This document shows positions 8,542 through 47,642 of a stretch of DNA of 64,000 bases, piece after piece. The stretch is from Setophaga petechia (taxonomy: Eukaryota; Chordata; Aves; Passeriformes; Parulidae), in NCBI GenBank assembly GCA_024362935.1, contig JANCRA010000003.1, positions 35,711,291-35,775,290 of the forward strand, written 5' to 3'. A model generated the notes under the pieces. The model was given only the letters and a program-made list of their open reading frames with translations. It did no database searches and was not told the DNA's origin. Every line of letters begins with the position of its first letter. Position 1 is the first letter of the stretch. Both the position numbers and the translations under genes were made by a program.

Positions 8542-21650
<13,109 letters not shown>

Positions 21651-21674
21651 AATGGCATCAATTATCTCTTGTCA

Positions 21675-23149: not shown

Positions 23150-23755
23150 AGTCATTCGGCAAACCTGAACACCCGGGGCCCGGCTGGAAGAGCCCTCAAT
23201 GGAAGGCACCTCTCCATCCACGGAAACCTTCCCTCTAACACAGCACACAATCCACCTGGGCAACTGCAAGCACGGCACAAGCCGTACGCGCTTGAAGTGC
23301 GGGAAGTAACGGGAGCAAGAAGCGGTACACAGAGAGGTGGCAACAGCGTGATGGGCCGCAAGGGCCGAGGCACGGGCCGGGACGGAACGGGCCGGGCTGC
23401 CTTCCGAAAGGCGCGGGGGGCGGGCTTAAGCCAGCACGGAACCCGGCCGGCAGCAGCCGGGCAGCCACCTCGCTGCGGCTCCCGCAGCCCCTGCTCTCCC
23501 GCCCACCCGCCGGAACCGCACAGGCCGCCCCCGCCGCCCGCACTCACCGCCTCCCGCACTCACCGCAGCCCGCAGTCGCCGGGGCCGCCCGGCCGCGCCC
23601 CGCCCGCTCCGCGCGGGGCCCGCCCGCACCGCCGCCCCCGGCCCGGCCCCGCCCCGCCGGTGCGCACGCGCGGCCCCGCCGGCCCAGCGCCCCCTCGCGG
23701 CCGGAGGGCGGGCGTGCAGCGAGACTCGGCCCGCGGGGTCTCCCTACAGAGGGGA
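23150..23755 (-). promoter_or_regulatory. EXT2: CpG-island promoter of EXT2
   Basis: A sharp rise in G+C and CpG starts near 23150 and peaks at 23390-23720. It has many GC boxes (CCCCGCCC type, about 23625-23660), no TATA box that I can see, and an exact NRF1-type site, TGCGCACGCGC, at 23661-23671. It lies upstream of the EXT2 first coding exon. The transcription start cannot be placed exactly; it should be to the right of the candidate exon-1 donors at 23548 and 23564. The (GGGAT)n array abuts its upstream side. Confidence 0.8.
23548..23640 (-). other. EXT2: Candidate non-coding exon 1 of EXT2 (5' end uncertain)
   Basis: On the minus strand, two copies of GCGGTGAGTGCGGG lie 16 nt apart, giving strong donors after 23564 and after 23548. 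Either would splice to the acceptor before 21674, giving a 5' UTR intron of about 1.9 kb. Human EXT2 also has a non-coding first exon. The right-hand boundary given here is only nominal. Confidence 0.5.
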
Positions 23756-23914
23756 GGGATGGGATGGGATGGGATGGGATGGGATGGGATGGGATGGGAT
23801 GGGATGGGATGGGATGGGATGGGATGGGATGGGATGGGATGGGATGGGATGGGATGGGATGGGATGGGATGGGATGGGATGGGATGGGATGGGATGGGAT
23901 GGGATGGGATGGGA
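23756..23914. repeat. (GGGAT)31 pentanucleotide microsatellite
   Basis: Thirty-one uninterrupted copies of GGGAT fill 23756-23910, followed by GGGA. The array directly abuts the CpG-rich EXT2 promoter on its upstream side. Because 5 is not a multiple of 3, all frames through it stay open and give spurious repetitive proteins. The plus strand satisfies the G3-N2-G3 quadruplex pattern throughout. Confidence 0.97.
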
Positions 23915-30954: not shown

Positions 30955-30960
30955 TTTATT
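30955..30960 (-). other. Candidate polyadenylation signal for ACCS
   Basis: This is the first exact AATAAA on the minus strand after the ACCS stop, about 670 nt downstream. No closer AATAAA or ATTAAA was found by eye, so the 3' UTR may be about 0.7 kb. No transcript support is available. Confidence 0.3.
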
Positions 30961-31630: not shown

Positions 31631-31929
31631 CTACTGCTTCCCCACCAGTTTGCTGAACACATCATAGATCTCTGGCTTTTCCTGGGCAAACTGCTCAGCT
31701 GTGTTTTTCTGTAACCAGTCAGATGAACGCATCTGTTGCTGCAGGAGGCCAATGAGGTCACCAAGGCTGGAGCTACTGGCACAGAGAGGGTCCTGGTGAC
31801 GGGATACAAAAATGACTTCATCTGTGCTATCTGCTTTGCCATCCTGATCTGATTGACAAGGCTGCTCCTTCTCCTCAGCCAGTATCTCCTGCTCACGCTC
31901 CTCCAAAACCTTGCGTATCCGTTGCATGC
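31631..31929 (-). CDS. ACCS: ACCS last coding exon (residues 790-888 and TAG stop)
   Basis: This exon completes a Gly codon, then encodes MQRIRKVLEEREQEILAEEK and a polar tail ending VFSKLVGKQ before TAG at 31633-31631. The first ~15 residues match human ACCS (GMQRVQQVL). The rest has no similarity I recognise and looks Glu/Gln/Ser-rich, with a second possible helix (SLGDLIGLLQQQM). The acceptor ACTGCAG ends at 31930. Confidence 0.92.
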
Positions 31930-34900
31930 CTGCAGTGGTACAAGGAGGAGAAACACTGGTGGATTAATTTAAGCCACAAGTGTCTCCAAATCCATCAGAT
32001 CCAGGAAAGGATAATGGAGTAAGGAAGCAAAAAACAGAGAAGACAAGAGGATAATAATAGCCTAAGTTTAGGATTGAAAAGAGATGGGAATAGTGGTGCA
32101 GAAATTGTGGTGGGAGGAAAAAGAACATTACTCACCTAACTGCAGCCGGTGGGTCTTGTCAGAAAAGATGATGCGGAACCATCCAGGTTCACTGCACTCA
32201 AAGGCTTTTCCGCAGGACAGGAGGACCTTATTATCCAGAAAACGCTTCCAGAGCAGCAACTCCTCCTCAAATGTGCCTGTCTTAAGGTACTAGGAGAGTC
32301 ATCAGAAGGGCCAAAGGTTAGTACCATATAAACTGCATCACTGAGATCCTCATGAATTTGTGATTCCCATAAAGCCTGCAAAGGCCAAGGGAGACACCTT
32401 TTACCTCTGAAGTACAGCAGTTGTGATACAAAGGAAGAAATGGGGAAGGAAGTGGCTTGAGAGTAGTAAGATTCCTGCAAGAAGGGAAGTTCACAGATTG
32501 ACAAAAGGAAAAGAACAGACTGAAACATCTGGCAGTCCTTCCCTCTCCTCATCAGACGATAGATTTGTTGAAATAAAATGCTTGTCACAATATTAACTCT
32601 TCCTCTAGATGCAGTTGTACCACATGCCTGCCCTCACCCCAGGAGAAGCCTCACTTCCCGAAACTACCAACCTTTCGGAAATCAATCCAGACAAAGAAGC
32701 CTGCATTGCGGTTGAGAAAAGGAACCCCAAGTGTCTTCAGCTCATCTGTCACATACGTATGGGCAGCTTTTAGGCGAGCATGGTTGGCCCTCAGGTACAC
32801 CTGGTTGATCCAGTCTGACCAGAAGAAGAAGATAAAGTAAAGAATCACAAACTGAGGAAGTATTCAGATCTGTTGAAGCTTTGAAAACGCCCAGTTGTCT
32901 TTTTCTGCTTCACACTTTACCTCCTTTTGTTTTCTGTTTCCTCAAATAACAAAAGGACAGCCAAGAAGTATTTTGCAGTTTCATGTCTGTGCAGAAGAGT
33001 ATCTCCCTGACCTTCCTGAGGAAGTTTCCCTACATTTATAGTTCTTAGTCATCATGGACTGTTAGCATTCCACTCTGGGCAGAGTTTGAAGCCCATTTCC
33101 ATTTCCCTTGTCCTACAAGCCTGTATTCCTTGTTTCTGCTCATCTGGTTCTGGGTAACTCTGGCAATTTCCATATAAATAGCTACTATGCTTCCTCCAAG
33201 CTGCTCCTCTACTCTGCTGATCAGCTCTGCATAAATGCTTTTCTGCAGAGCTGTCAGCCTTGTGTTGCATGGGCAGCTTCAGGGTAATGGAAAACTGTCA
33301 ATTAATGTGTACAAAGAGGAGACCACTAGGGAAAGTAAGGGAAGGGGAGATATTCCAGGTACTAAGACACACAGAATGGCAGAAGATTGTACATGGAGCC
33401 TGACTCACCTCTGTCTCTAAGCAGCTGTGCAACCTTGTGCTGGACAGGTCCACAAACCCCATGGAAATAGCACAAAGAAGCCACTGCATTAGCAACATCT
33501 TGGTTCTCTGTATATAAAGTACCAAAACGAATCCCAGAAACAGCAAAATCCTGCAGAAGGCACAAAGAGACTACTTTATTACACTGAACAACTGGGATCC
33601 TATTACTACTAACTTGATCTTTCCAGCATGAGGAACCTGAGGAGCCCAGACCAAAACCTAGCAGCCACAAAGGCACAGCATGATAACTACCAGCACTCAC
33701 CTTGGTTATGCCCCACATCACGTGAGTCCGCTGTGGATCAGGCAATCTGTATGTAGAAGGATGCAGATGGGCAGTTAGTGTCATAGGTGCTGAAGCTTTT
33801 GGATCACCAGTGCAGCATTGCAGAAACAGAGAGGCAGCATTACACAATGACAGACAGTGCACCCCGAACAGCAGTCAAGCAGGGAAAATTCAAATGCGAA
33901 CTAACTATAGAAGCTAGGAACCCCTTGGAAGTAGCTTTAGACAAGTTTTTAAATATTTCAAAGACACAGATGCTTACAAGTGCTACATTTTACATGCAGA
34001 TTTCCTGAAGCTCGTACATTTAATTATAGAAATCAGGCTTCTGCCAATGTATTTTGTCAAGAATCAAAAGTGATGTTCTTTTACATCTAAGCCCAGCATG
34101 ACTGAGCTAACACTTAACCAAGTATATTTTATTTCCTTGCAACTGAGCACAAAAAGATAGCTAGCAGCACTGGTGATGACTAAAAATTAAAAAAAAACCC
34201 AAACAACTCAACAACACACCATATTTTAAAAAATATTTTAAAAGTTCTTCATCTCATTAAAACAATACCTAATGAAATCCATTATCCAGTCTGTAATACT
34301 ACTGTGATCTGGGACTACTCTATGGAAAATTAGGAAGTAAACAACAATAGAAAGTCTTTACAAGCATCAACAGAAACATGGGGAAAAGACGTTTAGGTAG
34401 GAAGAAGAGCATCACCTTCAACAAAAGAAAAATCTGCTTTCTGTTTTGGGAACTGTCATAACCAAGTACTGATGCACACACTGAGAAGTATACCACAATA
34501 AAAAGCTAGCTACCATTCTTTACTTGCTAGATTGTACTTGACAAAATGCATTTGCCATTCAGAAATTCCTAAAAAAGGGCATAAATCAATGTAAGGTGGA
34601 TTCAGAATTTACTAGCTCATGACTTAACTTCCAGTCACAAGTTCTCAGCAAGGCATCATGTTGAACTGTCACTGGAAGATGGCCAGGGAAGTAGGAGCTG
34701 CTTTTACCTGTCCATGCCTAGGACACTGTGAAACGTGGCTGATTCATCAAAAACTGACAGCATGTAGATCTCATCTACTATCACATGCAATTCATGTCTG
34801 CAAAAGGACAAAACAGAGATTACAAAAGAAGGCTGCTTCTGGTTTAACACAGATAAATTCAGGCCTCCAAATACTTGCTTTATACAAAGAAGAGGGGATG

Positions 34901-37900
34901 CCAAATTTTGCAGAAATAAAGCAACTTTTCTCAACTTAGATCTATTTTGTGTACATTGAAATGATTTGAGGTATATCCACTTGTCACCCACTGTAACCAT
35001 GTAACAAGACAAAGATTCTACCATTGCCAATGTGAAAATTAATTCCTATAAGTACTACCCATCCACTCAGCATCTCATAGAATCTGAATCTCAAACAGTA
35101 TTATGATCCATGATGAAACCATATTCATACACTTCTTTGTCTTTAGAGGTACTAGGAAAGTGGGAGGAAAAGAACTCAGCTTTTTACCAGGGATGCCCAG
35201 TGCTATAGTGTTTCCTCAGATCACTGAAAAATAAAACTTGCATTCCTTGATACAAGCTGCTTTGCCAGCCCAGATGACTGCAGGGTCCATGATCCCAGCA
35301 CTCCCCTCCCCTTTCTTAAGTCCATCAATGTGTATGAAGAACAGACTATTCGCCTGACTTAAAAGATATTCACAGACAAATTCAGGGACAGCAAGTAGTC
35401 CACCAGAGTGTGAAAGCTGCATCTGACTCAGGATATCTAGGCTTTCCAAAGTGACATACCTTTTAGCAAATTCCAGGTAATCCCGTAGCTCTGACAAGGA
35501 GTAGATGTCCCCAAGGGGATTTTGGGGATTCAAAAGAATTAAGGCCCTTACAGTGACACCCTGCAGAATACAAATATCATGGTATTAAGAGAGTGCCTAT
35601 CGTGGGATAAATTTTCAGTTCCTCTACTTGAGTAGTCCCTCACTTGAGTGTGACACAGGATTCCCCTGAAGCTTCCACTATGACTTTTCACCTCAAAGTT
35701 AAATTTGTATGAGAAAATTTTCAGCCACAAATCAACATTTTTTTGTTTACAATTAATTCATTTGCAAAGTGAAATGAGCAAAATATTATAGAATTATTCT
35801 AGGATTTTGAAAAGAGGGAATTGCCACTACCAAGTAATTGGTTGCCATCTGGTCAACCAATTAATGAGAAAGATGGTCTCACATGTTCTCAGTATGGAAG
35901 TACTTTTTCTGAGCTGCATTAGTAATTGGGAAATAATAAATTACTGAAGACTGCCCATAAGAGTGGCAAGAAAGATGAGAATTTGAGTTAGGTGGATGCA
36001 AAGTGTACTCATTTAAAGCATACTTGGCTGGAGATGTCAGAGCTGGTAACAATTCAAAGATGCAGCTTAACATATATGGGATTTAGGACAATGCCAAACT
36101 TACAGACTAACTCTTCAGAAAAGTGATATTCACTTGCATTTTATCGTCTAGAGTTCTCTCCTGAAAAAAACTTTCAGCATTCTTAGTGTATTCATCTGCT
36201 CTACTGTGTAGAGCAAACAGTTTAGGTAACTCAGCTGGCCTTTCTGAGGGGGAAATCCTGTGTAGTCCCAAATTTTAGTGCATGCCCAAGTACATCATTT
36301 TTGGTTATATGAATGGGTTCCAGTACTTTGTGAATTGTCTGGTTTATCCTTTTTTGCTGTGACCAAAACTGGACAGACACAACACTGAGGGATTCCCCCT
36401 AGAAGTGCCCCTGAGTTCACAAGCCATCATCTCAGATGATCTACAAGGACAACCAGAAAGCCAGGTGCTAGGTTTTGAAAATGCTTCAATCTTTAGGCCA
36501 CATCTGGGATGTGACATCTCCAATATATTGTAAACTTAGCTGGTAATGTGAAGCTCAGCTAAACTCACCTCTGCCTGGGCATCCTGTAAGCCTTTTTCCA
36601 GTTTTTCCACTGTAAGCTGAAAAGGCCGAGTACTTGTTCCAGAAATCTGAAAGACATAAAAAAGATTAAAAAGGCAAAGTTGTTTCAATAGAGACTGCCT
36701 TGAGCCAATCCACTGACAAATGTTCCCTGAAAGAAAATAAACCCCCAACAATAATGACCTAGCAACCATCTTCTTATCCTCTTATACTACAGAGAGAATA
36801 AATAAATCAATTAGTAAAATCAAAGAAAAGTCCATCACAGGCTGGCCAAAACCAGAATTTTCTCGCTACTCTTGAATATCTAAAGCAATGCAAGATCTTC
36901 ATCTGCTCTTGCACCATGAGACCACCTTCAGTAGGACACGTAGGATAACTTCTCTCTCCAAGGTTCAAAATGGTAATTTTTTTTCTTTCAAGGACTTTTA
37001 CTGGGAGTAAGATACAAGAAAAGTACAAAACTGGAATCTAGATTCATGGTCTCAAGTGACTTTCTTGTAAGCCAGGTGTCCATTTTCCCAGCAATAAACT
37101 GTGTAAATGTCCATTGGCTGTAGTGTACCCTTGTTCTGAGAACTGCTTGCAGAGATTCCCAAAGCCCAGCTTTCCAGTTTAACTACAGAGATTGTTATTC
37201 CCTTCTCCCAGATCTTACCTTACTGTCTAAATAGACATACACCAGCTTGACATTACCATAGAGGAAGATACTCTGGGTAATACCACCATAACAGGGAGTA
37301 GCAATCAGAATAGCTTCTGGAACCAGGAAAACAAAGTTAGTTACCAACAGGTCACAATCTTCTCTCCTAATGTGCTTTAGCTAAATATGAAAGCATTTTT
37401 ACAGCTGCGTCCCTTGGAAAAACTGCAATTCTACTCCCTCTTTCTCCACTTTATTTTTACATTAATTCTTTAATCTTCTGCAAGTGCCCAGGTAACCATG
37501 AGTATAGTCCATGTCTAGTCTGGCAAACTAAAAAAAGGGTACCACAAAAACAGTGAAGGCAGACAGGGCAGGCATCAAGTGTGAGTGCATGACATCTGCA
37601 GACCACAGAATTGAAGAATTTCACAGCACAACTTTGCAGGAAACAAGAACTTTGCAGCAGGCCAATGCAAATTCCACTACTTCACTTCTGTCTAACAGTA
37701 TTTAAACAAATTAACATTATCTCCAAGCAGAAAAAAACTAAAAAAACCAAAACTATGTTCCAACCATCCACTTACCCCCTGGATCACAAAGGACTGTAGC
37801 TAATGCAGAAAATAAAGAGCCACAACCATTTAAAACAATCACCTACAGAAGAAAGAGAAATGCTAGTGATAAATCCATACATAGAAAGTCAACACCATAA

Positions 37901-40900
37901 AGCAATATCACTGACAATATCATTAAAATAAATTTTCTCCCTAAATCTCCATTAGGATTTTCCTGCTGAAATTCCACTTCTACCAGAATAACTTTAATCC
38001 TGTTCTTTCACACTTTGTTCTAGTGCCATTTTTCATTCTAATAAGTAATTTAGAAAAAGAATAGGCTTAAAGTAGGGAAAAAGCTGGGGAGCAGTTCTGA
38101 GATCCTAGTAAATCAAAATACTTTTCAACAGTTAATATGTGTTATCATTTCTTCATGGTAACAGCAGCTCTGACCTCCTGCCAAACTTGTGCAAAAGTGG
38201 AAACTACTGTTTCGTACAGAAGCAGGTTTGACTCCCTCTTCTACAGGACAAATGCTCACAGGTACCATGAGTTTCATTCCAAGTATCAGGAAGAATCTGG
38301 TGCCTTGAAGAGGCAGTGATCAGCAATCTGATCAGTGGTAACCTCAGTTCACAGGAAGCATGGGGTTCTGTTGAATTGCAGCCAGAAAAGCAATGCCTGC
38401 ACCAGTTCCTGCTGCCTTCAGCACTCAGCAGAGACAGGAGCTCCTGACCTCCACAGGCCCCTTTGTCCCGGCTGTATCTCTCACAAGTCAGCAAGTCCTG
38501 CAGAGATTCAGGTCCTGATGTCTTTCTAGCAACACTGCCACAAATTTTGCAGGCTAAAACTAACTCTTGGTTCAATTGCAAATCTCTGTCTTGAGGTGTA
38601 ACAGAGGAATGCAATGACATGGAACTCAACTGAAACAGTGGGCACTCTTTGCCATGGTTGAGGGATACAGGCAGAGTAGGTCCCTGAGCTAAACAGGGAG
38701 ATCAAAATGTAAAGCCCCATTGAGAGTACCAGCAGAAGGAGTTGGCACACAGAAGTGAAACATGAGGCAAATATACAGTAGGCCAGAAGTGTTCAGGTGA
38801 AAGTGTGCATCAAAAGCGACTGAAAGGCAGAATCAACCTCATTTACATGATAACAGCTTGCATTCTTACCAAATCATTTGTTTAAGAAAACAGAATTTGA
38901 AACTTTTTCCCAACAAATTGCAATACATCAGAATAGACACCAATGAACACTGGGTTACCTACATTCTCTGCTTTGAGAGGTGCAGGGGCCTTGCAGTAAT
39001 AGGTCAAAAATCGAGCCACTTCTTCCCGTAAACTGGAAAACACACAAAAGCAAATACTGATTCAAATATTCTCCAAGAGTCTGGGCTTCCAGACCAGGTT
39101 GACATCTTAGGAAAATCAAGTCAGGGACAGTATAGTCTGGTGAAAATAGCTAGAAAACAGAATAGCTCTGGCCCATGGAACAGACATGATTTTTACACCC
39201 CACAGAGGTGCTGCAGATAATGTCTATAATGGTGCATACATTTCTGATGAGCTTTAATCTGGCACAGAAAAGAAGGATTAACAACCCCAAGTGTTCACTA
39301 TGTTTCAAAGAATTGTTTAGAGTTGCCCAATTTGTTAATGTATACAAGTGCTTTTAAAACTCTGCTTCAGAAAATTTGCATCTTCTCTCACATAAAAGGA
39401 TTTTTAACTGGATGAGCTGGTAGGCCAGCTAATGTAAAGTTTAGTACGAAAAAGATGATTTAAGTGACCTAGAAACATTTTAACTAGAGAATGTAGCAGA
39501 AGAAGTTTGTATTCATCCATTCAGTTTATTAAACAAGTAGTCAAAAAGAGAAGCGTTACAGAAAAGACTTACAACAGATGTCCCTTCCAGTCAGGATACT
39601 GAAGCAGTGAAGGGTCCATGACATTCATGTCAGCCTGTGTCAGCTGGGAAAAATGAGAAGAATCATTAAAAGCCCAGTTACTGATACGGAAAATATGGAG
39701 ATAGACAGGATCCTTGCACAGGCACACATCTGCACAGACACTTGTGCAATTTCAACAGTTGTAAAACTGGACTGGGAAAGCCACTGACCATCAAAATTAA
39801 TGCAGCCTAGAGAAGCAAGGACCAGCAAACTGATCTGTGATACCTTCAGGTTGTATGAACTACAGGTTTCTGCTAAGTTACTGCAGCCAAAACTTCTCTG
39901 CACAGAAATCTACAAAAAGGATGCAGAACAAGCAACATACAGTGCCCATAACCAAGGTGTCTGCAGAAGACTTTCTCAGCAAATGAAGCAAAACCAAGAG
40001 TGTTTTGCCCAAGCTTTGAGGACAACAGCTTTTGGCTGGAAAAATAAGTGCCAGTTGTGAAAGCTCAGGCCCAGACTGTCAGAAAGGGTTAGAAGGGAAT
40101 TTGAATTGGAGTCAGATATGCATTTTCTTAATTAACTTTCAATCTATTAATTTTTTTAAATGAATTACAGCTTTCATTTATGTCTCAGTTCAAAGTTATG
40201 GCAGATTCTTCAGATTTTATTTTTCTGATCAGTTTGGTAAATGTTGAAGTGTAACAGGAGCTTTCAAAAGACACGAGAAGATTGAAATTATCTTCCTAAT
40301 AATTATTCCCCAGGACAGGCACTTTGTTCCTTATAAGAAGTTCATTCTGATCTCAAAGACAGATTGACCTGAACTGTGGAGGTCCTTTTTAATATTTATA
40401 ATTAGATAAAGTGTGCACACTGCTTTTACCTAAATATTTTCAAGATTTTAAGTATCAGGGTTTCACATAATCCAGTTCTGTGAAGTTGTAAGGGAAAGCA
40501 CAGCATTGATACAGGCTGAGGGAACATTTTAGATAAACAAAAGGCAATAAACAAGTATTGTATACAATGCCCCTTCCAAACATTTAATAGCAACCAAATC
40601 TATGAGTTAATACTAAAAAAGTAAAGGTGGAGGTGAAACAAGTAGGTGGCAGAGCAAAGGAGGTGGGAAATTCCACATGCAGTGTGAAAGTTTCACACTT
40701 GATAACAAAACCATAACATTTTCTATAGGTGTTTTAATAACTGGTGACAAGCTTTGGAGTTTAAAGACAATGTCCTTATCCCATGCAGAATTACAACCTG
40801 ATAGTATAGGATAAAAGTTCCTTCATTCTGCTGTAGATGTTCTTGGAGTCTGTGTAGCTCCAAGAACTTGCCTCCTTACATCTCTCTCCTAAACTTATCT

Positions 40901-43900
40901 AGAGAATGAAACACCAAACATACCAGCAGACTTGACTAAAAATTACTCTGAATTAATAAGAGGAGAATCCCTAACAGTAATGTGTTCTCTAATTTAAGGG
41001 TCAGAAGTTGAAAACAGAAACTGGATACATTATTCAGTGGCAGCAGTAAGTATTTTTAATCCCAAATAGTAAAAAAACCATTTGCCTACAATCCCAGCTG
41101 ATGCTGCACCAGCTTCAGTGAATCCATACTGTTACTCAAGGCTGCAAGGACTGAGAAGCTGACAACAACATCTTTGTTCTGCTTGTTGCCACAAGCATGA
41201 ACACTGCACCTGACAAAGTCTCAACTCACTTTCATAGAAGGGCTAATTAAGATGCAGCTGACTACTGTCTCCTTCTACACTACTTACTGCAGACATGGTG
41301 TTAGTTTAAAGGAGAAGGGACAGTGAAGGAAGGAAGGCACCACCTACACAGCCTAGAAGACACCTTTCCTTGCAGGCAGCAGCTCTGCCTTACCTGTTCT
41401 TTTAGCTGGAAGGAGGAGTGGTGGGGTAGCATCCCCTGAGCCAGTGGAGTAGCAGCCAGAAATAAAACAGGGAACACTTTGAAGGTGGGAAGTGGTGGAA
41501 TGGGAGAAACCATGAACTTCAAACTGCTGAGACTGTCCAACTGTCCAGCCCTGAGGCACCTCCCTCCCCGCACACAACCACAGGTAGGAAAAGGTGCTAC
41601 CTGCTCTCCTCAAAGGCTGCTTGCCACGGGCAGTGATTTTAATGGAAATCTAGAAACATTCCTCTACAGCATAGTTCTCTTGCTTCCTTTCAACTTTTTC
41701 TACTTTTTCAGTTCTGCTATGTGTTGCATTTCTCTGCCTGGTGCAAAACCAGCAGGTAGCAGCTGACCCGCTCTGATTTTGAGAGATTTCACTGCTGCCA
41801 CACTTGCACATTTCAGGTGAGTTCAGAACCAGGTGTCCAAGTTGTGTGACTTTATAATGGACAGGTGTAAAGATATTCAAAATTAAATAGATTTCAAAAG
41901 TAATTTCAAAATATATGTATTAAATAATCTACTGCGAGCAAGAGAAAATAAAATTCATCTTATTTTCATCAAATTTTTTGAAATAAGAACATCCCCAGAG
42001 AGAAACTCATCATGAAGAGGAAGAGAAAAACACCCATGTTCCTATCCTCCTGGAAAAATAAAGTAAATAAATGTACAAGTAGTTGTATTCAAAAGTGACT
42101 TCCAACAAATTTAAAATCCACAATGAAAAACTTCACCAGAAACCTGAGCAGCAGCAGTAACTCTAGGAAAGTGCAAGCTTTGAAGAAGGACTGCACAGCA
42201 AATTCAGTGTTTTGTTTTGGAATAGAACTTACCCGCTTGGACATCAGGTCAAAGCAGAGCTTGTTCTCACTGGTGCCAAAGTTTATTATACCCTAGAAAA
42301 AGAAACAGTATTGTTTATAGACACATAAAACACGTGAATACATCACCTTAGCTATCACTTCACTGAATTGCCTTCAAAAAGCTTACCAAGGAAAAGTCAA
42401 AACACAGTTCACATAAACTTCACCATATAAAACTCAAGACGTCCATCTATGTGTGTACATTTCCATATATATCCCAAGCACTTGGCTTCTTAGTCAATAA
42501 AAATAAACTGTCGGTAAATGAGCATGTACTAATAGTTTATACTTCTTTACAGAACATGTTTAACCTTATCTTGAATTCACTCACTATTATTTGTAACTAA
42601 AAAAAGAAATTGTAAAACAACTCTGAAAAAAACAAGGTTAACACTTCAACAGCAGTTTTAAACAAAGTTTTGGATATGTTTCTTTATCTTAAAAGCATTT
42701 GTTTACCATTAATTACTATTCCACTCCACTAGTTTGCTCAAAAACCATATAAACATGTAGTCATGATAAGTAGTTAAAATCCTGAATTTTACAGTTGATG
42801 AGATGACCCTACAGTTCCAGGTTTATGATTTGGCCATATATGCTATGGCATTAGATCCTGAAGAGTTCAAATCCACTAGTACATTCTCATTATTAGAAGA
42901 GTTTGGGTAAATAAAATTTTAATATGTGAAAGAAAATTGAAACAACTATACACTTCTCATGTTATTAAAGTACAAGTCTAATTTTAGGTATTTGTTTAAA
43001 AAACCTACCTCCTACATAGACAACAGTTTGTACAAGCAAAACCCTGTACCTCATAATACACCATGTAACAAAAACTTCCCTGTGTATCTCTAGTTTAACA
43101 ATCTAATTTTCATCCCTGCAACACAGTGCAACTAAAGTCACGGCTAGTAATAGAATATTTTTAAAGTTTCAAGTAGTTAGTTCAGTTGTGAATGAAGGAT
43201 CTAAATAAAAGTAATCCACATATAAATTTGTGAGTAACAAAACCTGTATTTGTTACTCAGTAATAGTTTGCCATGAACTATTAATATAGCCTTTGTGCCA
43301 CAAGAGGGCTATGACGAGCTACTTAAAACCAAGCAGCTGAGTGTAAATGGGCAGAAAAAGTGCTGAGTGTTATTAACAGTAATTAAAAAAAAAATGCTAC
43401 TACTTAGTAGTTCTACTTCCTGCACACATCACCTGCAATAATCAGATATAATCAGATAATCAGAGATGGTCCTCAGGGGTCAATAGAAGTCATGAGGTGG
43501 AAGGACGAACATGAGCTCTGCTCCTGCAGATTTCTTACATCTTTCAAGGTCTGCTACTGCTATTACTACCCTGATATAAAAATCAGAGTGTGCAAACCTG
43601 AGCTGAATACAGCATTCATCCTTGGTATCTAGATGTTCCACAAAGCTACTTTTAATTTCTTTTCCTCAAACAAGCAGTTTTATTCACCTTGTATTACTGA
43701 GATCAAAAAAAAAACCCCACACTTTTAGCACATCTGCCAGCAAACTTCTAAGAAACTTTTCTTCCCTAGCAAGGAAGCCAGGAAAACACTTTGAGGCTCT
43801 TACTCACGTTGGGGTTCTTGTCTTCATCATACTTGTCAGCATGATAGGCATTGTACCCTTCCTCAGTGGAGCCCTGAAAAGCACTGGCAAAGTTGCCACG

Positions 43901-46136
43901 GGCAGAGAGGTAGGGGCTTCTCTGGAAGCTGGGGTTACAGAGGCTGTGCACGTCAACCCTCCTCTTGGCAAGCGGCCGAAGCCTCATCTCCTGCAGGTTG
44001 CTCCCTCTTCCTCCCATTCCCTCAATTTCGGACAGTGCCTGGCTGAAGTCCAAACCCTGAGGCATGGCAACACAGGAGGAGGAGCCACTATGGCTCTGTT
44101 TTAGGATGCTGAGCATTTGAGCAAAGACATTGAACATGCGAAACTCATGTTCCCTCTCCAGTTCAAAGCGGCGCTGCTCCAGTTGCATCCGGCGCTCCTC
44201 CACGTCCAGATCTCGCTGGAAGCGGCGTTCTTCCATCTGCAGAAAGCGCTCCTCCATGGCCCGCTGGGACGTCAGAGTCTTCAGGAGCAGATCATCCAGT
44301 GGGTCCCTCATGCGCTGCCCTTTCCGCTTCTTTCTCAGCCGATGCAAGGCAGAGAAGCCAGGCCGGGGAACAACGTTCTGGATCCGTGATGAGTTTGCCA
44401 TGTTTGGCTCACTGAAACCTGTGAATACACAAAAGCAACGAAGAAGAAGTGCAGCAAGCAAAGTGGCATGGGCATGCCCTGCTTCCTTCTCCTGCCTGCC
44501 GCAAGAACAACCTTTTATCTACCACAGAGTTTACAGAAAAAACAAAGTAAAACCTGTCAGGTACATCCTGAGGTTTGCAAACAGTTTTTAAGTTTGTTTT
44601 TAACATCACACACTGGGCACACCGTGATGCTGCCAGCCCCAGCCCCTTACATGGACTCTGCATTAACCTGAATAATCATCAGTTTCCTCCACTAGGCTAA
44701 CTATGCAAGCACCACAGCCAAGAGGACACACCATTTCTTCCTGACCTCAGACATTAACTTCACATTTGTTATCATCTCTTCTTCTCCAACAATTCATGGT
44801 CTTTCACCAGCCTTCCTAGACTGGTTTGAAATCCCCAGGATTCCCAGACTGTACCCTTCCTGGTAGCTAAGCAATGCCAACTGCATTTTCAGTGCAGGAA
44901 TCTCATCTCCTGTAAACAAATACTGTTTCTGCCAGTGACTTTCACAAACATCTTCTGTGCAAGTCCCACCAAATAGCTTAGAAGTCAGGCAATGGTTATT
45001 CCCAAGTATTCTTCACTGTTGAGTGGGCTAAAATATAAGATCTGGAACATATTTTAAAACAATGCAAGGACAGTTTACAGTGCAACCATGGCAGAAGAGG
45101 GTGTCATGATACAATTCAGCATGAGGACAGCAGACAGCTCTGGTTATGTTCAAGTGACACCAAATAAGCATGCAAATGGGTTTTTTACTGTCAGCCTTAT
45201 ATGCAGAAACCTAACTGGCCCAACTTATGGAGCTCTTTAGATTTCATACACAGTATTTCACCTAGCTCAGTAATTCTAGATTATATTTACCTGCAGTGAG
45301 ATACCTGCATTTTGGGAATGGCCAAAACACCATGAATTCAGATATCAGCTTTCTACTTTAAAGCTTTCTGGGACGTGGAAAAAGAAGGATCCAAATGTCA
45401 TTGAGAAAACCGGGTGTCTATCTCTGCGCCAGAAATAATCTTCTCTTTCTGGGAAAATGGGAAAGAACCTTATGCTGGAATGTAAAAGGCTATCCCTACC
45501 TGAAGGTGAAACACTGGTTTCAATGGGAATCTCCACCCTGGAGATGGGAGAGTCGTTTTGGGCCCTCTCCAAGAAGGCTCTCTCCATCTCCTGTTCTTCA
45601 GGGGAGCCCTGCTGGTAAGGCATGGCTTGTGGGGGCTCTGGGGTCAAGCTGTGGTCATCAGAGTTCACCTCCTCACATTTGATTTCCATCAGCTCAGGGT
45701 GCTGGGAGTGTCCGAAGGGCAGGGTGGAGGAGGTGAACTGGTGGTGGTAGCTCTCCACCATGCTGCCCTGCAGCACCTGCTGAGCCATCATGCTGCCGCT
45801 CAGGGAGCCATAGGCCAGGGCCGGCCGGCTGGTCAGCACCCGGTCCATCACCTCGTAGAACTTCCACGTCCGCCCACCCCGCGGGGCCTTGCTATTGTCC
45901 TTGATCCGCCGGTACTCCAGCTTCATCTTCTTGATCTTCTCCCGGCACTGGTCTCCCGTCCGGTGGATGCCCTTCTCCCGCAGCACCTCGGCGATGCGGT
46001 TGAAGACGTGCTGGTTGCGCAAGCAGCTCTCCAGCTCTATCTGCACCGACTCGTCGGCCCAGAGCTGCAGCAGCTCCACCACCTCGGGGTCCGACCAGTT
46101 ACTGCCGCGCTCGTACTTCTTCCCACGAAAATCCAT
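31631..46136 (-). CDS. ACCS: SANT/coiled-coil/ACC-synthase-like fusion protein (15 coding exons, 888 aa)
   Basis: Joined exons: 46136-45500, 44418-43808, 42292-42233, 39643-39573, 39032-38963, 37842-37776, 37316-37219, 36646-36569, 35560-35460, 34797-34708, 33746-33701, 33550-33409, 32814-32672, 32289-32136, 31929-31631. They total 2667 nt with compatible phases and no internal stop. Residues 12-102 are a trihelix Myb/SANT-like domain (W14, W26, W91). Residues 239-250 are basic (RLRKKRKGQRMR) and 253-315 a charged coiled coil. About 395-790 is the fold-type I PLP domain, with N578 (NPQNPLG), D606 and Y609 (DEIY), the PLP lysine K643 (ITKDF) and R777 (WFRIIF). A 98-residue tail follows. The enzyme part matches remembered human ACCS and ACCSL; vertebrate ACCS is reported not to make ACC. 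The symbol follows synteny and homology. The SANT fusion is inferred from splice phase. Confidence 0.85.
32136..32289 (-). CDS. ACCS: ACCS coding exon 14 (residues 739-790)
   Basis: This 154-nt exon encodes YLKTGTFEEELLLWKRFLDN, KVLLSCGKAFECSEPGWFRI and IFSDKTHRLQL. R777 in GWFRIIF is the expected substrate carboxylate-binding Arg. The acceptor CTCCTAG ends at 32290 and the donor GTGAGT starts at 32135. Confidence 0.94.
32672..32814 (-). CDS. ACCS: ACCS coding exon 13 (residues 691-738)
   Basis: This 143-nt exon completes an Asp codon and encodes WINQVYLRANHARLKAAHTY, VTDELKTLGVPFLNRNAGFF and VWIDFRK. It closely matches the C-terminal small domain of human ACCS. The acceptor GGTCAG ends at 32815 and the donor GTTGGT starts at 32671. 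Confidence 0.94.
33409..33550 (-). CDS. ACCS: ACCS coding exon 12 (residues 644-691)
   Basis: This 142-nt exon encodes DFAVSGIRFGTLYTENQDVA then NAVASLCYFHGVCGPVQHKV and AQLLRDR. SGIRFG carries the conserved Arg after the PLP lysine. The acceptor TTCTGCAG ends at 33551 and the donor GTGAGT starts at 33408. Confidence 0.94.
33701..33746 (-). CDS. ACCS: ACCS coding exon 11 with the PLP lysine (residues 628-643)
   Basis: This 46-nt exon encodes LPDPQRTHVMWGITK. The final residue, K643, aligns with the Schiff-base lysine of ACCS; human has Ser just before it, here Thr. The acceptor ATACAG ends at 33747 and the donor GTGAGT starts at 33700, so the catalytic lysine codon sits exactly at the exon end. 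Confidence 0.92.
34708..34797 (-). CDS. ACCS: ACCS coding exon 10 (residues 598-628)
   Basis: This 90-nt exon encodes HELHVIVDEIYMLSVFDESA then TFHSVLGMDR. D606 and Y609 in DEIY are the expected pyridine-nitrogen and PLP-hydroxyl partners. The acceptor TTTTGCAG ends at 34798 and the donor GTAAAA starts at 34707. Confidence 0.93.
35460..35560 (-). CDS. ACCS: ACCS coding exon 9 (residues 565-598)
   Basis: This 101-nt exon encodes GVTVRALILLNPQNPLGDIY then SLSELRDYLEFAKR. N578 in NPQNPLG is the expected PLP-ring-contacting Asn. The LGDIYS spelling is closer to remembered human ACCSL than ACCS. The acceptor TTCTGCAG ends at 35561 and the donor GTATGT starts at 35459. Confidence 0.93.
36569..36646 (-). 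CDS. ACCS: ACCS coding exon 8 (residues 539-564)
   Basis: This 78-nt exon encodes ISGTSTRPFQLTVEKLEKGL then QDAQAE, with the TRPFQLTVEKLE stretch nearly identical to human ACCS and ACCSL. The acceptor TCTTTCAG ends at 36647 and the donor GTGAGT starts at 36568. It is a whole number of codons. Confidence 0.93.
37219..37316 (-). CDS. ACCS: ACCS coding exon 7 (residues 506-538)
   Basis: This 98-nt exon encodes EAILIATPCYGGITQSIFLY then GNVKLVYVYLDSK. The family motif IPTPYYG reads IATPCYG here: Pro is replaced by Ala and the first Tyr of the pair by Cys, while the second Tyr is kept. The acceptor GGTTCCAG ends at 37317 and the donor GTAAGA starts at 37218. Confidence 0.92.
37776..37842 (-). CDS. 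ACCS: ACCS coding exon 6 (residues 484-506)
   Basis: This 67-nt exon encodes VIVLNGCGSLFSALATVLCD then PG, the glycine-containing PLP-phosphate loop region (human LNGGASLFSAL). The acceptor TTCTGTAG ends at 37843. The donor GTAAGT at 37775 follows the first base of a Glu codon. Confidence 0.92.
38963..39032 (-). CDS. ACCS: ACCS coding exon 5 (residues 460-483)
   Basis: This 70-nt exon completes the split Phe codon, then encodes LREEVARFLTYYCKAPAPLK and AEN. The acceptor TTTTCCAG ends at 39033. Frame requires the donor GTAGGT at 38962; a GTAACC four bases further in looks usable but would shift the frame. Confidence 0.9.
39573..39643 (-). CDS. ACCS: ACCS coding exon 4 (residues 437-460)
   Basis: This 71-nt exon encodes LTQADMNVMDPSLLQYPDWK then GHL, containing the LLQYPDW motif. 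The acceptor TTCCCAG ends at 39644 and the donor GTAAGT starts at 39572. It ends after two bases of a Phe codon. Confidence 0.92.
42233..42292 (-). CDS. ACCS: ACCS coding exon 3 (residues 417-436)
   Basis: This 60-nt exon encodes GIINFGTSENKLCFDLMSKR, the hallmark NLGTSENKL motif of ACC-synthase-like proteins with Phe in place of the usual Leu. The acceptor TTTCTAG ends at 42293 and the donor GTAAGT starts at 42232. It is a whole number of codons and too short to show as an open frame on its own. Confidence 0.93.
43808..44418 (-). CDS. ACCS: ACCS coding exon 2: basic stretch, coiled coil and start of the enzyme region (residues 213-416)
   Basis: The acceptor TTCACAG ends at 44419, and the two leading bases complete the Gly codon begun in exon 1. 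The basic run RLRKKRKGQRMR (239-250) looks like a nuclear localisation signal. Residues 253-315 are rich in E and R in heptad-like order (AMEERFLQMEERRF, DVEERRMQLEQRRFELERE). The exon ends with STEEGYNAYHADKYDEDKNP, homologous to the start of the human ACCS enzyme domain. An internal ATG at 44401-44399 (AACATGG, strong context) could start a 670-residue SANT-less form. Donor GTGAGT at 43807. Confidence 0.88.
44419..45499 (-). other. ACCS intron 1, joining the SANT exon to the coiled-coil exon
   Basis: This 1.08 kb intron has donor GTAGGG and acceptor TTCACAG. It shows no CpG island, TATA box or poly(A) signal by eye that would suggest exon 2 starts a separate gene. The coding frame of exon 1 continues 51 codons into it before a stop at 45345. 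Confidence 0.6.
45500..46136 (-). CDS. ACCS: ACCS coding exon 1: trihelix Myb/SANT-like DNA-binding domain (residues 1-213)
   Basis: The ATG at 46136-46134 has G at -3 and +4; the reading frame stays open upstream but I see no earlier in-frame ATG down to 46211. Residues 12-102 have the Myb_DNA-bind_4 (trihelix) pattern: NWSDPEVVELLQLWADESVQ, then QCREKIKKMKLEYRRIKD, then GGRTWKFYEVMDRVL. Residues 107-212 are a low-complexity Ser/Gln/Pro/acidic linker with a SUMO-type site (IKCEE, K153) followed by acidic residues. Donor GTAGGG at 45499 follows the first base of a Gly codon. If unspliced, the frame runs to a stop at 45345, giving a 263-residue SANT-only protein. Confidence 0.85.
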
Positions 46137-46930
46137 CGCTCCCGGGGCCGCGCCCGCCTCTCGCCCCGGGCTGCGCACCTGCCCCTGGCCCGCCGGGAGG
46201 GGCTTTCGCACCTCGGCCCTCGAGGGCGCCCGGGCGGCCCGGCCTCCCCCAGCCCCTACCGGGCTGCAGGGCCTCGGGCACGGCTCGGCACGGCTCGGCT
46301 CAACCCATCCGCTGGAGTCAGGCGGAGCGAGCTAGCGGGGAGCCGGGCCGGCATGTTCACATCCGGGGTGACGCACATGCGTGCAGCCTTATTCCGGGAT
46401 AACTTTATCCCGTGCCAGGCGCTTGTCGCGCTCCCGGGGCCGGGCCGGGCTCCGAGCGGCGCCGTGGGGTCCCTCCCACCCTGACTCTTTTCCTGCCTCC
46501 CTGCCTCCTGCCGCCCGTCACTCCGCACGCCCCGGCCCGGGAGGAGGCACCACCGGCCGTGCCGTGCCGCATCACCCCGTGCCGGGCCGTGCCGAGCCAC
46601 GGCCGCGCCACAGCCGCGCCCCCCCTCACGGCGCTCGGCACCGCGGCCCCGCCCCGCCCCGCCCGGCGCTACCAGGCACGGCCCGGCACGGCTTCGCCCG
46701 CAACACCCCCGGCTCCGGCCCCGGCGGGGCGGAGACCTCGAGAGCGGTGCCGCCGAATGCCGCCGGTGGAGCGGCCGGCCCAGCTCCCACCGCGCCCCCG
46801 GGCCCGGGTCACTGGCGGCGCCTTTGCCGGGGGCGGGCCTGGTGTGGCGAGAGCTGCGGGGGTCGGCGGCAGCCCCTGACAGCGGCCTTCCCCGCTGCTC
46901 CTGTGTCCCTCGGGGACAGCAGCGCTCGGG
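46137..46930 (-). promoter_or_regulatory. ACCS: CpG-island promoter of the ACCS-like gene
   Basis: The block is strongly G+C and CpG rich, and the island continues into coding exon 1 as far as about 45600. It has GC boxes (46650-46665) and no TATA box that I can see. Two short inverted repeats lie 235-280 nt upstream of the start codon: ACGCACATGCGT (46371-46382) and CGGGATAACTTTATCCCG (46395-46412). Long frames on both strands here are a side effect of base composition. Confidence 0.75.
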
Positions 46931-47642
46931 GACACGCACGGGGGCACTGCCCAGCGCTCCTGGACACCAGCGGAAGATCTGTGTCTCCAGCCTGGCCGTC
47001 CCGAGCGACCAGGCATTACACCAGCTGGGTCCTTTGTTTACACGCCACCGTCAGATCGAGTACGCACTCCGTCCTCTACCACATCTCTAACTGGGCTGAA
47101 GGATTGCAGAGAGTGAATGCAAGATTTCTTTCTTTTCCTCCAAACCACACCAGCTCGAATTCCCTGCAGGGATCTGTGATTGCGGAACTCAACTTCACAG
47201 AGCTATCCTGCCGCATCAGCCATGAAGGTGGCCTCGAGGCACGCTGCAGGACAGAGCTGGCAGCACCGTGCCACATCGGTGCGGAAATCTCAGTCCAGAC
47301 CCCAGTCCGGCAGGATAAGGACTGAGCCCTAAGACACCAAGTGCAAACATAAACCAGTAATTAATGAGGAAACCAGAATGACACAGTGTGTCCATATCCT
47401 GTATCACCTGTGGCCAACATAATGGTGGTGAAGCACATACTAAGTTTCTAATTTTCCTCTTAGACCAAGAGATCCACTTCATTGCAGCACTAGGTTTTTT
47501 TATCCAACTGTTATTACCTTCATTCTGGATTTTAATAAATCATTCACAGCCTCTATGATTCCATTTCTCAGTCTGTGAAAAGGAAACAGAAAACTTGATC
47601 CTGGCTAAATTTCACTAAATACTTTGTCTTGGGGGCAGGGGC

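Follow-up and report, generated by a model that had tools for sequence, protein, structure and literature searches.

The SANT-ACCS gene and its product

We analysed a window of 64,000 nucleotides (nt) from Setophaga petechia (contig JANCRA010000003.1, positions 35,711,291 to 35,775,290 of the forward strand), in which positions 46136-31631 hold a minus-strand gene that joins a Myb/SANT-like head to a pyridoxal 5'-phosphate (PLP) fold resembling 1-aminocyclopropane-1-carboxylate (ACC) synthase. Rebuilt from the raw sequence, the gene has 15 exons summing to 2667 nt and encoding 888 residues, with no internal stops and a single terminal stop TAG, which reproduced exactly the in-frame fusion that an earlier note on this DNA had described. 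GT-AG was found at all 14 introns and every phase was compatible, including the two junctions singled out earlier: 45500/44418 (exon 1/exon 2) divides the Gly213 codon after base 1 and 43808/42292 (exon 2/exon 3) falls in phase 0. Almost certainly, S. petechia carries here the avian copy of an old jawed-vertebrate gene, whose single protein product comprises a trihelix Myb/SANT head followed by a basic cluster, a charged helix, a PLP fold of the ACC-synthase type and, at the C-terminus, a conserved module. A chance fusion is excluded because the canary has a full-length annotated protein (98% identical) and full-length matches with both domains reach the sharks.

The combined Pfam and protein search that the earlier note had proposed found both domains and pointed to an ancient fusion, conserved among the listed matches from birds to sharks. 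Searching with the 888-residue protein gave 453 matches (E up to 0.001), 120 of which were listed, and three protein searches together listed 324 distinct rows (two of the three listings being the best 120). Eighty-four of the 324 contained both the SANT core motif and the enzyme motif SENKL (the fused rows below), and another 64 contained the SANT core motif alone. Among the matches listed, both Pfam domains were observed in canary, ducks, turtles, crocodilians, lizards, snakes, salamanders, caecilians and frogs, in platypus, echidna and two marsupials (Tasmanian devil and Dromiciops), and in coelacanth, lungfish, gar, Amia, sharks, a ray and a chimaera. These fused proteins were mostly annotated "ACC synthase-like protein 1". 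No lamprey, hagfish or invertebrate was named among the matches listed, many rows of which lack species names.

Exon 1 (45500-46136, on the minus strand like all exons and protein features below) contains the start codon, the SANT/trihelix head and an acidic-proline linker that ends in the divided Gly213 codon. Its start, MDFRG, was common to the shark, fish, amphibian, reptile and monotreme rows inspected. The head matched the Pfam Myb/SANT-like domain PF13837 (45840-46103, residues 12-99, E 6.1e-21) over profile positions 2-88 of 89, a near-whole domain, with 75.1 bits against a curated cut-off of 27, and its sole match among solved structures was the GT-1 trihelix 2ebi (E 1.6e-4). The stretch expected to form the third helix holds 8 basic and 4 acidic residues; a basic third helix is typical of DNA-binding SANT domains, as opposed to those that bind histone tails.

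Exon 2 (43808-44418) encodes a basic cluster, RKKRK, resembling a nuclear localization signal (44321-44335, residues 241-245), then a conserved charged helix (44096-44305, residues 251-320), a variable linker and the N-terminal arm of the ACC-synthase fold (SPYLSARGN...DKNPN). The basic cluster was present in 71 of the 84 fused rows and missing from 2, the other 11 being without the anchor motif and hence not scorable. The helix had been described earlier as a coiled coil; it is conserved and charged, but its periodicity, taken as the hydrophobic moment near 100 degrees over about residues 251-320, was equalled by 513 of 2000 shuffles. The start of the enzyme had also been placed in exon 2, which stands for the N-terminal arm, carried by stand-alone paralogues as well, but not for the Pfam domain PF00155, which begins at residue 418 in exon 3 (42233-42292, residue 417 onward).

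PF00155, the aminotransferase fold, covers residues 418-781 with 199.3 bits (cut-off 19.7). Its closest solved structures are the plant ACC synthases 1iax (E 1.6e-56) and 1m4n (E 2.5e-55), matched over the whole fold, and as regards fold and PLP pocket the earlier description of the enzyme as complete and ACC-synthase-like is correct. Exon 4 (39573-39643) places Trp455 (39587-39589) at the position of plant Tyr85, exon 9 (35460-35560) encodes Asn578 (plant Asn202), and exon 10 (34708-34797) encodes Asp606 and Tyr609 (plant Asp230 and Tyr233). The last codon of exon 11 (33701-33746) is the PLP lysine, Lys643 (33701-33703; plant Lys273), followed by Arg651 (plant Arg281) in exon 12 (33409-33550) and Arg777 (plant Arg407) in exon 14 (32136-32289). 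The rebuilt model also includes exons 5 to 8 (38963-39032, 37776-37842, 37219-37316 and 36569-36646) and exon 13 (32672-32814).

Exon 15 (31631-31929) holds the end of the enzyme fold, a variable stretch, a conserved C-terminal module (31634-31759, residues 847-888) that has no Pfam name, and the stop codon. The tail motif was observed in 74 of the 84 fused rows; when it was loosened, none of 11 stand-alone paralogues and none of seven therian ACCS rows had it. Compared with solved structures at E up to 10, the module had three weak matches, the best at 0.0019; each was a viral fusion-helix construct, with 0, 1 and 0 stretches passing on their own, and we read these as chance helical likeness. 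The variable part of exon 15 contains the acidic-hydrophobic stretch DEVIFVS (31802-31822, residues 826-832), which we take to resemble a SUMO-interacting motif. The pattern DEVI[FY][VI]S was found in 58 of the 84 fused rows and was absent from their fish, shark and both marsupial rows.

A poly(A) signal, AATAAA, lies 3' of the stop codon (30955-30960, minus strand). Exon 1 and the sequence upstream of it are covered by a CpG-rich, promoter-like region (45601-47000, strand unassigned), in which six 400-base intervals had a GC content of 0.63-0.80 and a CpG observed/expected ratio of 0.48-0.99. Intron 1 contains neither AATAAA nor ATTAAA; intron 2 contains one AATAAA and two ATTAAA.

Probable spliced transcripts, relatives and genomic setting

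Three single contigs of 2829, 3621 and 3666 bases (P0074, P0097 and P0100; frog-, sturgeon- and ray-like by likeness) encode fusions of 852, 921 and 902 residues and include the exon 1/exon 2 junction. The source label of these short contigs, 'lgn', we take to denote an assembly of public reads. They leave no space for introns and hence represent spliced molecules or, less likely, retrocopies, so that spliced fusion transcripts very probably exist, judging from these other species. No processed transcript copy, which would have demonstrated splicing in this species, was found in the S. petechia genome with head and enzyme queries: the head query reached its own two exons at the locus plus four SANT exons far from it, and the enzyme query reached native exons only. 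The earlier note had named, as evidence against the fusion, a lack of joined transcripts together with a separate promoter just upstream of 44418 and a SANT exon ending in its own poly(A) site; the first is contradicted by the spliced-length contigs from other species, and AATAAA and ATTAAA are absent from intron 1. Three further rows that are teleost-like by likeness (P0142, P0144 and P0145) had the head, helix and ACC-synthase arm joined. Several of the SANT-only rows were inspected (e.g. P0122, P0123) and are short frames reading through the exon 1 donor site. In a set of turtle and caecilian rows (P0057-P0062, P0065, P0067, P0102 and P0103), short N-termini of various kinds lead directly into exon 2, so that the products are headless but keep the helix and enzyme.

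In an enzyme-domain tree of 56 rows, one clade of 43 rows (support 100/99) contained all 25 headed rows, and the group of stand-alone paralogues (about 420-490 residues; own support 83/70) adjoined it. Therian sequences fell on two branches. The first was ACCS, with two marsupial and six placental rows, all headless (100/99), and the second joined the marsupial headed gene to five placental ACCSL rows (99/93; 96/93 in a second tree of 25 rows). Holding placental ACCS and ACCSL together was rejected by the approximately unbiased (AU) test in the 25 rows (p-AU 0.008), a hypothesis chosen with the first tree already in view and one that involves long ACCSL branches; the stem of the headless placental ACCSL measured 0.49 and 0.54 in the two trees. 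From these trees we infer that a headed ancestor duplicated in therians, that the ACCS copy lost its head and tail module, and that the ACCSL copy still bears the head in marsupials but no longer in placentals. Since sharks, fish, amphibians, reptiles, birds, monotremes and one therian branch all have the head, the headless therian forms are more simply explained by loss. For placental ACCS, too, the trees suggest a lost head and not a gain in birds. A search limited to proteins of up to about 488 residues supplied the short ACCS rows, whose headlessness was judged from their N-terminal sequences. The earlier note's statement that human ACCS lacks the SANT head agrees with the eutherian rows examined.

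Traces of the exon-2 helix were sought in headless N-termini by comparison with the corresponding Tasmanian devil segment. The scores of two ACCSL-type N-termini were reached by 0 of 1000 shuffles (Myotis) and 1 of 1000 (camel), which suggests that these two placental sequences retain a decayed trace of the helix; the Myotis row (P0105) was assigned as ACCSL-type by likeness and stands outside the trees. The start of a wallaby ACCS (Notamacropus) matched the Tasmanian devil linker (1 of 1000 shuffles). There was no signal of the helix in two placental ACCS N-termini (597 and 886 of 1000 shuffles) or in three stand-alone paralogue N-termini (113, 607 and 925 of 1000).

The next recognised gene, EXT2, has the same orientation and begins its coding sequence about 10 kb downstream (no search for other genes was made in between). 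Its first coding exon lies in the minus-strand frame 21069-21671 (Exostosin-2 match, E 3.4e-79), and 12929-13387 on the minus strand is presumably a further EXT2-like exon. Human ACCS and EXT2 are arranged in the same way. In a GC-rich stretch upstream of EXT2 lies a near-perfect GGGAT five-base repeat of 32.8 copies (23752-23914). Elsewhere in this genome PF13837 was found at six other places, four of which matched this head at 34-39% identity. Three adjacent SANT (PF13837) exons, 34-39% identical to this head, lie on one strand at C1:25323390-25340932. Enzyme matches in this genome were confined to the window locus, so no other SANT place adjoins a recognisable ACCS fold. The stand-alone ACCS paralogue of eagles, ducks and other birds was not found in the 1.22 Gb assembly, where a harpy eagle query reached the window locus only, owing to either loss or an assembly gap.

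Conservation, pocket residues and candidate functions

The SANT head is the slowest-evolving part of the protein. Set against five cartilaginous-fish rows (one placed as such by the enzyme tree), this bird agreed at 94-95 of 100 head residues, and its enzyme was 61-69% identical over 388 residues; sharks and birds span more than 400 million years. We compared regions across 22 fused rows, with a separate FastTree topology for each region. The head had a tree length of 0.72 and a mean pairwise identity of 92.2%, followed by the C-terminal module (2.47, 70.5%), the charged helix (2.56, 68.3%), the enzyme (2.74, 72.7%) and the ACC-synthase arm (4.42, 66.6%). Two linkers were far looser, with tree lengths of 5.86 and 19.36, as was the variable part of the tail (10.37).

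Pocket residues were counted in this bird and 120 other rows (121 in total), with roles, including that of Tyr85, as in plant ACC synthases. The PLP lysine and the Asn202 equivalent were observed in all 121. The Asp230 and Glu47 equivalents were each present in 118, with three gaps each and no replacement, and those of Tyr233, Arg281 and Arg407 in 116 (1 Phe, 1 Ser, 3 gaps), 118 (2 His, 1 gap) and 110 (2 Ser, 9 gaps), respectively. The position of plant Tyr85 was Trp in 116 rows and Phe in one, with four gaps, and this substitution makes plant ACC synthase chemistry unlikely in the vertebrate protein. A title cited in the reference list of PMC2748086 states that the human homologue is without plant ACC synthase activity. 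In a second alignment with apple numbering, the lysine was present in 83 of 84 fused rows (one gap), 11 of 11 stand-alone, 8 of 8 ACCS and 5 of 5 ACCSL rows. Replacements outside the 121-row census included Ala at the Glu47 equivalent in one of eight ACCS rows, Lys at the Asn202 equivalent in one of five ACCSL rows, and Cys or Gly at the Arg281 equivalent in two of the five. Residue 514 (37291-37293), which adjoins the conserved pocket tyrosine, is Cys in this bird and Phe in 110 of the 121 rows.

The ray Hemitrygon (P0098) and its tree neighbour P0100 carry His for Arg281 and Ser for Arg407, with the lysine kept and the head 94-95% identical. As aligned, both proteins keep the head but no longer have residues with expected roles at substrate and phosphate, and they offer a natural test of whether catalysis matters.

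The explanation that best covers these observations is a nuclear, DNA-binding regulator whose PLP fold serves as a dimerising and ligand-sensing module, together with loss of the head in therian mammals, and we hold it to be evenly balanced between right and wrong. A nuclear location is suggested by the basic cluster and the head, DNA binding by the domain family and the basic helix, and a dimer by the fold family. In such a protein two aminotransferase folds would pair as in class I PLP proteins, so that the paired SANT heads could recognise a repeated DNA site. How far apart or how active the heads are would then depend on PLP, or on an amino acid attached to it, as in the bacterial regulators MocR and GabR. 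Ligand sensing of this kind is plausible, though we put it somewhat short of an even chance.

Several observations weigh against such a regulator. A coiled coil is not clearly indicated for the exon-2 helix. Annotations include headless isoforms for turtles, a caecilian, Sphenodon and others, so that the enzyme part may also act alone, and the AATAAA and ATTAAA in intron 2 make a head-plus-helix product without the enzyme possible. The headlessness of ACCS depends in part on the length-limited search (up to about 488 residues), and among the marsupial ACCS rows one bears the name isoform X2. Finally, the catalytic residues are retained by most rows, as would be equally expected of a working enzyme.

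Such an enzyme could be tethered to chromatin, where the head would carry it to particular loci and catalysis would be the output, by making or removing a small metabolite locally (e.g. ammonia plus a keto acid). The equivalents of the Lys, Asn, Asp, Glu and Arg residues are indeed kept in most fused rows, and mammalian ACCS is listed in a 2025 paper (PMC12363045) as deaminating L-vinylglycine. We nevertheless consider a tethered enzyme unlikely, given the two ray-type rows that lost both arginine equivalents but kept head and lysine, the replacement of Tyr85 in 117 of 121 rows (the remaining four being gaps), and a head tree only about one quarter the length of the enzyme tree.

The same two ray-type rows, in which neither arginine equivalent survives, and the reported lack of plant activity in the human homologue (a title in the PMC2748086 reference list) would also suit a dead scaffold, in which the fold merely dimerises the SANT heads and PLP or a ligand is no longer needed. 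Dimerisation alone would not require the fold to retain the PLP lysine in 121 of 121 rows, and we regard this explanation as improbable. Least probable, and very doubtful, are two separate products, with the fusion a minor form or an artefact and the locus making a SANT-only (ending in intron 1) or head-helix (ending in intron 2) protein plus a headless helix-enzyme from an internal promoter: the 64 SANT-only rows of 324, the frames running into intron 1, the headless isoforms among the matches listed and the intron 2 signals agree with it, but intron 1 has no such signal, the SANT-only frames inspected are plain read-through of the exon 1 donor, and spliced-length contigs carry the whole fusion in three lineages that are distant by likeness.

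Comparison with known systems

This gene is the one annotated as ACC synthase-like protein 1 (the ACCS locus, upstream of EXT2), an orthology borne out both by its place in the enzyme tree and by synteny with EXT2, and the name conceals the SANT head. The domain architecture is already recorded in databases, where both domains appear on these proteins. We found no description of a SANT head on vertebrate ACCS in the listed entries and abstract openings of open-licence papers (at most 20 per list) on the fusion, on animal ACC synthase, on MocR or on Myb/SANT genes and Harbinger domestication. If the head binds DNA, this would be, to our knowledge, the first animal protein in which a DNA-binding head is joined to an aminotransferase fold. 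The placental ACCS rows examined differ from the bird protein in having neither the head nor the C-terminal module. Stand-alone vertebrate ACCS paralogues (about 420-490 residues) share the fold and the N-terminal arm and lack the SANT domain and the tail motif (0 of 11).

Among plant proteins, GT-1 and other trihelix proteins with PF13837 belong to the same domain family as the bird head. The ACC synthases of tomato (1iax) and apple (1m4n) have the whole fold, the PLP lysine and most pocket residues in common with the bird protein, which differs in having Trp for Tyr85 and in the added SANT head and tail. Human ACCS and ACCSL take their names from the plant enzyme, whose activity is reportedly absent from the human homologue. 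If the ancestral fused protein was a DNA-binding, PLP-holding regulator, the question about this family moves from the product of an enzyme to the genes controlled and the ligand read.

MocR proteins combine a GntR head with an aminotransferase-like domain, and GabR is described as a head-to-tail dimer (PMC5320631). The earlier note had proposed an animal counterpart of these regulators. The order of the parts supports this, with an N-terminal DNA-binding-type head (residues 12-99) before a class I aminotransferase fold (418-781), as does the kept PLP lysine. The head, in contrast, is a trihelix/SANT domain and not a GntR winged helix (the Pfam scan of the 888-residue protein gave no GntR match), and the animal protein has long linkers, a charged helix and a C-terminal module of its own. 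It is at most an analogue of MocR because its head belongs to a different family, and the vertebrate fusion presumably arose separately. As a tentative proposal, jawed vertebrates would own an independently built, MocR-like, PLP-sensing transcription regulator that was dismantled in mammals, with human ACCS and ACCSL as its headless relics and not failed enzymes.

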